Below, one piece after another: positions 22,862-54,809 of a stretch of 60,809 nt of DNA. This DNA is from Candidatus Altarchaeales archaeon WOR_SM1_SCG (GTDB taxonomy: Archaea; Altiarchaeota; Altiarchaeia; IMC4; WOR-SM1-SCG). How positions within the stretch are numbered: position 1 is the first letter of the stretch; the number at the start of each line of letters is the position of its first letter. The stretch lies in NCBI GenBank assembly GCA_001723845.1, contig MCBE01000217.1, forward strand, positions 1-60,809, in the 5' to 3' direction. The position numbers and the translations under genes were made by a program. Below the pieces are notes generated by a model. That model saw only the letters and a program-made list of their open reading frames with translations. It was not told the origin of the DNA and ran no database searches.

Positions 22862-25315
22862 ATGGCTTCTGATTCAAATAATTCCGACGGTGAGGAAAAC
22901 AACGAGAAAATCATCCCCCGCAACATTGAAGACGAGATGAAGAAATCCTATATTGATTATTCAATGTCCGTTATTGTCGGAAGGGCACTTCCTGATGTCA
23001 GGGACGGCTTAAAGCCGGTTCACAGGAGAATTCTTTACGCGATGCACGAAGCAGGTATAACTGCAAGTAAGCCGCATAAAAAATCAGCAAGAATTGTCGG
23101 TGATGTTCTTGGGAAATATCATCCTCACGGCGATGCGGCTGTTTATGACACAATGGTTCGTATGGCACAGGACTTCTCACTGCGGTATCCGTTAATTGAC
23201 GGGCAGGGAAATTTCGGAAGCGTTGACGGAGATGCCGCAGCAGCAATGCGTTATACGGAATCCCGGATGGCAAAAATTGCCGAGGAATTACTTGCGGATA
23301 TTGAAAAAGAAACAGTAAATTTTATGCCGAATTACGATGCCTCATTAAATGAACCTGTTGTTCTTCCGGGAAAACTGCCAAATTTATTAATCAACGGCTC
23401 ATCAGGGATTGCAGTCGGTATGGCAACCAACATTCCGCCTCATAATTTAAGTGAAATTATTGACGGAATTATAAAAATCATTGACGAGCCGGAAATAGCA
23501 ATCTCGGAATTAATGGAAATTATTAAAGGTCCTGACTTCCCGACAGCAGGAATCATTCAAGGAACATCCGGGATTATGTCTTATTATGCAACCGGCAGGG
23601 GAAGAATACGACTTCGGGCAAAAGCAGACACAGAAAGTGAGGAGGGAAGAATCATTGTCACAGAACTCCCATACCAGGTGAACAAGGCAAATTTAATTGA
23701 AAATATCGCGCATCTTGTAAAAGACAAAAAGATTGAAGGGATAAGAGACCTAAGAGACGAGAGCGATAGGGAAGGAATGCGAATTGTTATTGAATTAAAA
23801 AGGGATGCTCAGGAAGAAGTTGTTTTAAATCAATTATTTAAACATACTATGATGCAGACAACCTTTGGTGTGATTATGTTAGCACTTGTTGATAACCAGC
23901 CAAAGATTATGGGTCTGATTGAAATAATAAATCACTATTTAGAACACCGGAAAGTTGTTGTTCGTAGGCGAACCGAGTATGAACTAAAAAAGGCAGAAGA
24001 GCGCGCCCATATACTTGAGGGACTGATTATTGCACTTGATAATATTGAGGAAGTCATTAAAATTATCCGCAGTTCAAAAACAGTAGAAATTGCAAAAAAT
24101 GAATTAATGATTAATTTTGAACTCTCGGAAATCCAGGCAAAGGCAATTCTTGACGTGCGGCTTTCAAAACTCACCGGGCTTGAAATTGAAAATGTCAAAA
24201 AAGAATATAATGAACTTCTTGAATTAATTAAAAAATTAAAAGAAATTTTAGCGAGCGAGGAGAAAATTTTAAATATAATAAAGGAGGAACTCGCGGAAAT
24301 TAAAGAAAAATATTGTAAAAAAGATGCGAGAAGAACAAGAATTGATGAATTCTCGGATGATGATGACATTGATGATGAAGATTTAATTCCCGATGAGGAT
24401 GTTGTTGTGACAACCACAAACACCGGATACATCAAGAGAATCCCGATAGACACTTACACAATACAGAAAAGAGGCGGCAAGGGCTTGATCGGCATGAAAA
24501 CAAAAGAAGAGGATTTCATTGTTGACCTTTTCATTGCATCAACCCACGATTATATTTTATTCTTTACAAACAAAGGACAGGTATTCTGGCTGAAAACATA
24601 TAAAATCCCGGCAAGCGGAAGGCATGCGAAAGGCAAAGCAATAATCAATTTAATTCCCCGTCTTGAGGATGATGAAAAAATTAATGCAACAATTCCCGTA
24701 AAGGTCTTTGATGACGAGCATTATCTTATTTTTGCAACAAAGAAGGGAGTTGTAAAAAAGACCGCACTCTCGCAATTCCGGCACCCGAGAATTAACGGGA
24801 TTCGCGCGATAAAACTTGACGAGGGCGACGAAGTTATTGCGACCCTTATGTCAGACGGAACCCGCGAGGTAATAATCGCAACGAAAAACGGGCAGGCATG
24901 TAGGTTTAGAGAGCAGGACACAAGACCAATCGGGAGAAGCACAAGGGGAGTTCGCGGAATACGGCTCAATAAAGGTGATGAAGTTGTCGGTATGGCGGTT
25001 GTTAATGAATCACAAAATTTACTGACAATTACTGAAAAAGGATACGGGAAGCAGTCAATGGTTTCTGCTTACAGGAAGACAAAGAGGGGTGGAAAAGGCG
25101 TTAAAACGATAATTACAAATGAAAGAAACGGTGGAGTTATTTCAATAATTCCTTCATCTGATGCTAATGATGAATTTATTATTATGAGCGAGCAGGGGAT
25201 GGTTATAAGAATTGATGCGAGTAATATCCGTGTTATGGGGAGAAATACGATGGGCGTTCGGATAATGCGGATGAATGAAGGGGATAAGGTTGTTAGTGTT
25301 GCGAAGTTGGATTGA
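22862..25315 (+). CDS. gyrA: DNA gyrase subunit A
   Basis: 817 residues. N-terminal breakage-reunion domain with A-A-M-R-Y-T-E-S-R (active-site Tyr) and G-Y-x-K-R-I-P later; the C-terminal beta-pinwheel starts with the GyrA box Q-K-R-G-G-K-G, which marks gyrase rather than topoisomerase IV. An acidic stretch (D-D-D-D-I-D-D-E-D) links the two. With GyrB (not in the window) it introduces negative supercoils. Gyrase in archaea is mainly a euryarchaeal trait of bacterial origin. The last 117 bases recur at 26096-26212. Confidence 0.96.
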
Positions 25316-52171: not shown

Positions 52172-52344
52172 TTAATTATTTTCCAATTCATCTATCGCAA
52201 AAATTACTACTTCTTCCCAGCAATCAAGCCCCCATTCCACTCCTTTTTTAACCCTGTCTAATTCTTCGGCGGTTAATTCCCTGTTTAATTTTTATATGCC
52301 TTTTCAAGTATCCTGCTATAATCTTTTTTAGTTATATTATCCAT
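52172..52344 (-). pseudogene. Small frameshifted gene overlapping the DNA methylase end
   Basis: Starting at ATG 52344 the minus strand reads M-D-N-I-T-K-K-D-Y-S-R-I-L-E-K-A-Y-K-N, then hits a stop; in the next frame L-N-R-E-L-T-A-E-E-L-D-R-V-K-K-G continues to I-D-E-L-E-N-N and TAA. One missing base near 52290 explains the break. It is probably a helical accessory protein of the methylase, recently inactivated or mis-sequenced. Confidence 0.6.
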
Positions 52345-53366
52345 TCTGTTATCGCGTTATTTATTTTAATTTCTTTTAGATTATTAACTGCACTTTTACA
52401 ATAATTCTGGTTTATGTCAAATCCGATGTAATTTCTTCTTAATTTTTTGCATGCAAAAGCAGTAGTCCCTGACCCCATGAAAGGGTCTAAAACAATGTCT
52501 CCCTCCCGCGTTAATAATTTTAATAACTCCTGTATTATGTACTCAGGATAAATTGCAGGATGTTTAGCGCCTTTTATGGTTTCTACCGGGCTTTCAATTA
52601 CATCTCTTTTTATGGAGTTGCCGTGTAATTTTATAATGGTAAATCCCTTTTTTAATATCTGTGTTTTTCTTCCGCCTTCCTGCCCGCCAAAAGGTAAGGA
52701 GTGAATACCCTTTATTTTCATACGAAAACTATATAATTTCCCGCTTTTGACTTCTTCTATCACTTCCTCAAGTTCTTTTATAGCCCTTCTTTTCTGTTCT
52801 TCTAACAACTCAGAGTTTTCTATTAGTCCAAAATATTTTTTACCAAGGTTATTTCCGTTTCCGTTTCTTTTGGTTCTGGATTTATCTAACAAATTCATAA
52901 ATTCATCAATGTTATAATAGTAATCATCACTTTTAACAAAATGGAAAAATGGCTCGGTGCTGCTCACCAATCTTCTTCTAAATTGTCTTGGAGTCGGGTT
53001 TAATTTAACCCATGTAATGTCATTTACAAGTTTTACCGGCAGTTTGTTTAAAACTTCTATGGCAAACCTGTAAGGTACCAACAACAAACTGCTGTTTTCA
53101 TATTTATCTCCTATGTTAAAAACAATACTGCCGTCGTTTTTAATCACCCTGAAACATTCATAAAACAGTTTCAGGAGGTTCTCAACATACTCTTCCGCCC
53201 GGTTTTCATTTCCAATTTCTTTTTCGTATCCGCCATAATCTCTTTGCTTGAAATACGGCGGCGAGGTTATGATAAGATTCACGGAACTGCTTGGAATTTC
53301 TTTTATTAATTCCAAACAATTGCCGCAAATTATTTTATTTACGAACTCGTTAATTGGTTTTGCCAT
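52332..53366 (-). CDS. DNA (N4-cytosine or N6-adenine) methyltransferase
   Basis: 344 residues. Motif IV T-S-P-P-Y-F near residue 34, then motif I D-P-F-M-G-S-G-T-T-A-F-A near 295: beta-class order. It modifies DNA at a sequence that cannot be told. No intact restriction nuclease is visible, only the small frameshifted gene overlapping its 3' end, so it may be solitary and regulatory. Confidence 0.9.
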   Translation of the reverse strand: MAKPINEFVNKIICGNCLELIKEIPSSSVNLIITSPPYFKQRDYGGYEKEIGNENRAEEYVENLLKLFYECFRVIKNDGSIVFNIGDKYENSSLLLVPYRFAIEVLNKLPVKLVNDITWVKLNPTPRQFRRRLVSSTEPFFHFVKSDDYYYNIDEFMNLLDKSRTKRNGNGNNLGKKYFGLIENSELLEEQKRRAIKELEEVIEEVKSGKLYSFRMKIKGIHSLPFGGQEGGRKTQILKKGFTIIKLHGNSIKRDVIESPVETIKGAKHPAIYPEYIIQELLKLLTREGDIVLDPFMGSGTTAFACKKLRRNYIGFDINQNYCKSAVNNLKEIKINNAITEWII

Positions 53367-53434: not shown

Positions 53435-53818
53435 TCACCTCTCCCTCTTCTCAATAACCCTCGCCCTTCCTCCGAATTCAACATAAGTAACATCATCGCC
53501 TTCATTGACTTCATTTAAAAGTTCTGGCGTGATGTCCGCATCAAGCATTTCATAATTATCCATTGACATTACCTGAACTTCATTACCCGTCTTTGCAATC
53601 AGCTGCCCGTGCCTTTTTATTATTTCAATATCTTCAACCCTCTCATGAGACGACATTGTTAATGACTCTTTTTTTCCTGAAAATAAACCCGCCATTTCAA
53701 CCTTTGTTTTTGTATGGCTGTGCGTTCCGACAACAACCAGACCTATTTTTTTAATCCTGTACGGCTCGCCCTTGTGTGCTATGTAACTTCCTCTTGACAG
53801 TTTTTTAATTTCAATCAT
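53435..53818 (-). CDS. eif5A: aIF5A, with Thr at the hypusine site
   Basis: 127 residues. N-terminal SH3-like barrel, then an OB-fold. It aligns without gaps to archaeal IF5A: Y-R-I-K-K-I is followed by V-G-T-H-S-H-T-K where the family has P-G-K-H-G-x-A-K. The Lys between G and H that is turned into hypusine (or deoxyhypusine) is therefore Thr (ACG). The rest is normal (A-G-L-F-S-G-K-K-E-S-L). aIF5A helps peptide-bond formation at hard sequences and needs the modified Lys for that. The protein may be a hypusine-free version or one of two paralogues. Confidence 0.9.
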   Translation of the reverse strand: MIEIKKLSRGSYIAHKGEPYRIKKIGLVVVGTHSHTKTKVEMAGLFSGKKESLTMSSHERVEDIEIIKRHGQLIAKTGNEVQVMSMDNYEMLDADITPELLNEVNEGDDVTYVEFGGRARVIEKRER

Positions 53819-53873: not shown

Positions 53874-54809
53874 TCAATTTTCCATGAGTTCGGGCTTAAC
53901 ACCCTTTGCCAGGTCATCGTACATTCTTCTTATTGTTGCCTCAGGAATTCCTGCAAAAGCGATAATGTCTGACGGCGCATTCTCATCCCCGGTTAATTCA
54001 CCGGCAATGTGAAGTGCTGCCATTGCAGCCCCGACAGGTGCTTTTCCTGATGTGATTCCCTTATCTCTTGCAATTTCAAGTACTTCTTTTGCTTTATTCT
54101 GGGTGTTGCCTGAAATCTTTAACTCGCTTGCAAGCCGCTCAACATAATCCATCGCGGTAATTACAGGCATTCTTAAGCCGAGTCCTCTATAGACCGTCCT
54201 GTAACTCCTGCCTATATCTTTCTTTTTTATGCCCGATGCTTCTTCAAGTTCCTCAAGTGTTTTCGGCAGGCGGTGCTGTCTTGAAACAAGATAAATTATT
54301 GCCGCGACAACCGACTCAATACTTCTCCCGCGAACAACGCCTTTACTTACGGCTTTTCTGTATGTCTGGGCACATTCCTCTTTAATGTTATTCGGGATAT
54401 TCAGGTGCGCACACATCCTGTCAAGTTCCGGCAGTGCCATTGATAAATTCCTGTGCACTGAATCGGACATCCTTGTTCTTTTCTGCCATTTCCTGAGACG
54501 ATATATCTGGGCTTTGCTTTCCGGCGGAATTGCACCGCCCCTGATGTCGCGATCGTAGCGGTCAATTTCAGTTGTCAGACCTTTATTGAGTTTTGCAAAT
54601 TTTAGAGGACCTCCCGCCCTTGCACGCTTTGCTTCCTGCTCATCGTCAAATGCCCTCCACTCCGGACCGTGGTCAAACATTTTTTCTTCCATAACAAGAC
54701 CGCACCCGGCACAGATTCTCTCACCGTGTTTGTAATCGGTTATTATCTCTGTTCCGTTGCATTCAGAACACATCTCCTTTCCGTTATTTTCATTTAACGC
54801 TTCATTCAT
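53874..54809 (-). CDS. tfb: Transcription initiation factor B (TFB)
   Basis: 311 residues. Zinc ribbon C-S-E-C-N-G-T-E-I-I...C-A-G-C-G, B-finger region E-W-R-A-F-D-D-E-Q, then two cyclin folds, each with A-x-x-Y-x-x-x-R-x-x-x (A-A-I-I-Y-L-V-S-R and the second with A-A-L-H-I-A-G-E). It recruits RNA polymerase to TBP-bound promoters. Confidence 0.97.
   Translation of the reverse strand: MNEALNENNGKEMCSECNGTEIITDYKHGERICAGCGLVMEEKMFDHGPEWRAFDDEQEAKRARAGGPLKFAKLNKGLTTEIDRYDRDIRGGAIPPESKAQIYRLRKWQKRTRMSDSVHRNLSMALPELDRMCAHLNIPNNIKEECAQTYRKAVSKGVVRGRSIESVVAAIIYLVSRQHRLPKTLEELEEASGIKKKDIGRSYRTVYRGLGLRMPVITAMDYVERLASELKISGNTQNKAKEVLEIARDKGITSGKAPVGAAMAALHIAGELTGDENAPSDIIAFAGIPEATIRRMYDDLAKGVKPELMEN

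Follow-up and report, generated by a model that had tools for sequence, protein, structure and literature searches.

As judged from sequence, the window, a 60,809-nucleotide contig of Candidatus Altarchaeales archaeon WOR_SM1_SCG, encodes an old, conserved paralog of the archaeal translation factor IF5A (aIF5A) that lacks the hypusine lysine; the Lys-less copies make up one clade and occur beside canonical aIF5A. An earlier, sequence-only reading of the locus had not foreseen this old clade, which has its own H-x-H loop and spans four archaeal phyla. The features of the locus are listed in Table 1.

Table 1. Features of the Lys-less aIF5A locus, in window coordinates.
Feature	Position	Strand	Remarks
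Lys-less aIF5A paralog	53435..53818	(-)	127 aa; N-terminal KOW/SH3-like domain and C-terminal OB fold
Loop GTHSHTK, residues 31–37	53708..53728	(-)	H33 and H35 present in every one of the 40 paralogs
Codon ACG (Thr32), hypusine position	53723..53725	(-)	K in 84/84 canonical aIF5A; T/R/N in 40 paralogs
Transcription factor B (TFIIB)	53874..54809	(-)	Upstream neighbour, 55 bp off, same strand as paralog
N6/N4 DNA methylase	52332..53366	(-)	Downstream neighbour

The open reading frame starts with ATG, and its product is a full-length IF5A. The loop codons GTC GGA ACG CAC AGC CAT give V-G-T-H-S-H, within the longer stretch VVGTHSHTKTK. The best named family was archaeal IF5A (PRK03999, NCBIfam), which matched nearly end to end with an E value of 9e-27 and 93.3 bits, below the equivalog cut-off of 138 bits. 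The scores against TIGR00037 (70.6, cut-off 75.45) and Pfam IF5A-like_N (20.8, cut-off 27.1) were likewise below threshold. Derivation from bacterial EF-P was ruled out, because the IF5A models score far higher.

The sequence-only reading had claimed that the loop lysine was replaced by threonine, and had allowed that a structural alignment might move a nearby lysine into the tip. When the protein was aligned by profile with the solved aIF5A structures 1iz6 (Pyrococcus), 8put and 1eif (Methanocaldococcus), there was no gap across the loop, so that T32 occupies the position of the hypusine lysine and K37 corresponds to the second lysine of GKHGxAK. The AlphaFold model (mean pLDDT 91.5) showed a complete two-domain fold, with residues 31–34 forming the turn between strands 18–30 and 35–44. 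The replacement by threonine at the tip was thus borne out, and a shift of K37 to the tip was ruled out by the gapless match together with the model. The top solved match of the predicted structure was the archaeal aIF5A 1bkb (Z 15.1, 126 residues aligned, rmsd 2.8), with EF-P also among the best solved matches; the predicted fold matched aIF5A and EF-P end to end, ribosome-bound structures included. The protein therefore has the KOW/SH3-like and OB folds of canonical aIF5A over about 130 aa, as far as the predicted structure goes, with Thr32 where canonical aIF5A has lysine.

The same reading had proposed that the organism either lives with an unmodified factor alone or has a second aIF5A, and had suggested a search for the latter and for deoxyhypusine synthase. 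The search found both, which bore out the second alternative, though the canonical copy may be incomplete in this organism. The window's genome (G000), a MAG that is 74% complete, carries on contig C231 a canonical aIF5A whose loop is PGKHGEAK, and on contig C245 an intact gene for deoxyhypusine synthase with the motif GGGISKHH. Tetranucleotide usage in the window and in C231 is closely similar (r = 0.989). The acceptor lysine for deoxyhypusine synthase is absent from the paralog, though the gene for the enzyme is present in the genome.

On C231, the canonical reading frame runs as aIF5A to about residue 104 and then passes into transposase-like sequence; its C-terminal end, about 20 residues, is missing at the contig end, which may be a true disruption or a break in the assembly. 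A 42-aa C-terminal fragment of aIF5A was found on C33:22190–22315 (L167:1185–1313), just after a transposase-like ORF. The 3′ end of the aIF5A gene may be a repeated insertion site (C231:1–500, L003; C33:22190–22315). On C245, about 50 codons from the start of the deoxyhypusine synthase gene are repeated almost identically at 24065–24244 (L002), 3.7 kb upstream of the intact copy, and the repeat runs on into unrelated sequence.

The Lys-less paralog is present in 22 genomes from four archaeal phyla; nearly all of the sequences come from MAGs. In the window's phylum, the extra copy was found in 3 of 29 genomes (G000, G007 and G009), and canonical aIF5A in nearly all. The loop reads GTHSHS in G007 and GNHSHT in G009. 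The N-terminal part of the G009 paralog (C6, L056:120–200) is out of frame at the contig start, and the copy is possibly a pseudogene or the result of a poor contig end. Profile searches placed the paralog in at least 16 of 236 genomes of a second phylum (Woesearchaeota/Nanoarchaeota by named records), in 2 of 23 genomes of a third, where the tip residue is arginine, and in 1 of 10 genomes of a fourth. A sample of 394 archaea included 8 with the paralog. When named records were scanned with a four-sequence alignment as query, 27 loci were recovered, nearly all from Woesearchaeota/Nanoarchaeota; a scan of genome contigs with the single protein as query gave no match. No relatives of the paralog were found in viral contigs or in plasmids, which ruled out a viral or plasmid origin.

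Profile scores were bimodal: complete Lys-less copies scored 156–183 bits and the partial G009 copy about 103, while the next matches reached 103 bits or less (canonical aIF5A at most 103) and carried lysine wherever the loop was read. Deoxyhypusine synthase was present in every one of the 22 paralog genomes, and a PGKHG-type canonical aIF5A above the equivalog cut-off in 20 of them; the other two are incomplete MAGs. None of the Lys-less copies in these 22 genomes scored above the PRK03999 cut-off. More than one match to the deoxyhypusine synthase family was seen in each of four paralog carriers, G183 (C112 and C126), G577, G556 and G431.

Among the 40 paralogs, the tip residue at position 32 is threonine in 37, arginine in 2 and asparagine in 1, and never lysine. 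A sequencing error at this codon, which the earlier reading had named as a possible refutation, was excluded by the 39 further sequences with the same type of loop. H33 and H35 are invariant (40/40), with S, M or T between them at position 34. All 84 canonical sequences have glycine at position 34 and proline at position 64; no paralog has glycine at 34, and proline 64 is mostly replaced by V, I or L. Because membership of the canonical set was decided by the GKH motif, its lysine count holds by construction; the tree is not affected in this way. In the tree, the paralogs formed one side of a branch with support of 100/100, or 100/99 after the loop columns were removed, and grouped separately from canonical aIF5A. 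The window protein falls within this clade and has its loop, [GS][TRN]H[SMT]H[TSA]. The ratio dN/dS was 0.04–0.18 in close paralog pairs; the Lys-less family is under purifying selection.

Compared with canonical aIF5A (PRK03999/TIGR00037; 1iz6, 1bkb, 1eif, 8put), the paralog retains the full-length two-domain fold (as predicted), the loop length, the first loop histidine, the second lysine of GKHGxAK, and M84, Q72 and Y89. It differs in the missing hypusine lysine, the change of G34 to S, M or T, the fixed H35, the loss of Pro64, its separate clade and its scores below the equivalog cut-off.

The genes beside the paralog vary. The pairing with TFB and the DNA methylase was not kept at the other paralog loci compared, and clustering of neighbourhoods revealed no neighbour common to the window and the other loci. 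The only strongly recurrent context was a pseudouridine synthase gene (PseudoU_synth_2), found after the paralog on the same strand at 12 Woesearchaeota loci, mostly at a distance of −1 to about 50 bp; it is confined to part of that lineage and absent from the window. Loci with this arrangement include L112, L113, L116, L117, L118, L123, L124, L128 and L129, and RNase HII commonly follows next after the synthase in Woesearchaeota. The pairing hints at a role in ribosome biology, in this one lineage.

We consider that the paralog is probably a second archaeal IF5A that acts on the ribosome without hypusine, through its fixed H-x-H loop, and that it would have its own target motifs or control a ribosome state. 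The explanation we favour, to which we give a slightly better than even chance and which follows the example of bacterial EfpL (YeiP), is that of an unmodified E-site translation factor that would serve a subset of stalled ribosomes beside a canonical aIF5A that is presumably hypusinated. The family has lost the hypusine lysine to T, R or N and fixed an H-x-H loop; the paralog would still bind the ribosomal E site, and its unmodified, histidine-containing tip might contact the P-site tRNA end or the peptidyl-transferase centre differently. EfpL has an Arg tip that works unmodified and, alongside EF-P, supports the translation of proline motifs (PMC11611912). Like EfpL, the paralog coexists with a modified factor and has a non-lysine tip, which is arginine in two members of the family. 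Unlike EfpL, the window protein has 127 residues and no third domain, its loop is as long as that of aIF5A, its tip is threonine, and it derives from aIF5A rather than EF-P (93 bits with the IF5A model, 18 with the EfpL model). An unmodified E-site factor is the best reading because the predicted fold is complete, the loop is strongly constrained, canonical aIF5A is present in the same genomes and EfpL provides a precedent. The paralog-specific changes outside the tip, the loss of Pro64 and the change of Gly34 to Ser, could also reflect lost ribosome binding.

The main rival, which we regard as possible if rather unlikely, is that the paralog plugs the E site in ribosome assembly or dormancy and does not promote peptide bonds. 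The eIF5A-like domain of Nmd3 occupies the E site (PMC5536393), the titles of PDB entries 9rvu and 8y0u refer to eIF5A on dormant ribosomes, and the Woesearchaeota pairing with pseudouridine synthase would fit such a role. The paralog has the eIF5A-type fold of that NMD3 domain but stands alone, with no match to PF04981 (NMD3 N-terminal region). Moreover, an NMD3 homologue is already encoded in the window's genome by a separate gene on C291 (L168:670–1620), the C-terminal part of which matches the IF5A model, and the sporadic occurrence of the paralog fits a core assembly role poorly.

It is more doubtful that the paralog has acquired a function off the ribosome, such as RNA binding or RNA turnover. 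Ribonucleolytic activity has been reported for Sulfolobus aIF5A (PMC9599864), and the fungal Woronin body protein HEX-1, which has a role outside translation, shares the eIF5A domain and was among the structural matches (Z about 10.8). However, identity between HEX-1 and the paralog is only 10–12%, and the likeness seen is that of the shared fold alone. The invariant H-x-H and unchanged loop length also count against this reading, since they suggest continued contact of the tip with a conserved partner.

That the Lys-less copy has replaced a transposon-broken canonical aIF5A, so that this cell lives with an unmodified factor, is very unlikely: the transposase-like sequences on C231 and C33 would agree with it, but the break sits at a contig end of an incomplete MAG, deoxyhypusine synthase is kept intact, and nearly all other paralog genomes keep canonical aIF5A. 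A different modification on the loop Thr, Arg or His in place of hypusine is the least probable of all; varied modifications on the tips of bacterial EF-P are well established (PMC11611912), but the tip residue varies between T, R and N, and the clustered neighbourhoods held no conserved gene for a modifying enzyme beside the paralog.

IF5A itself is a known kind of protein; what is new is an archaeal IF5A paralog unable to carry hypusine, of which we found no description in the literature searched, most subscription journals being outside its reach. According to the 2024 EfpL paper, eukaryotes and archaea have only lysine as the tip residue (PMC11611912), and a conserved archaeal clade with T, R or N at the tip breaks this rule. 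If the paralog does act on the ribosome as proposed, it would represent a class of translation factor undescribed in archaea or eukaryotes. The results suggest separate origins of unmodified IF5A/EF-P paralogs in bacteria, as EfpL, and in archaea. Since both forms are kept within the same cells, nature here provides a test of the purpose of hypusine.
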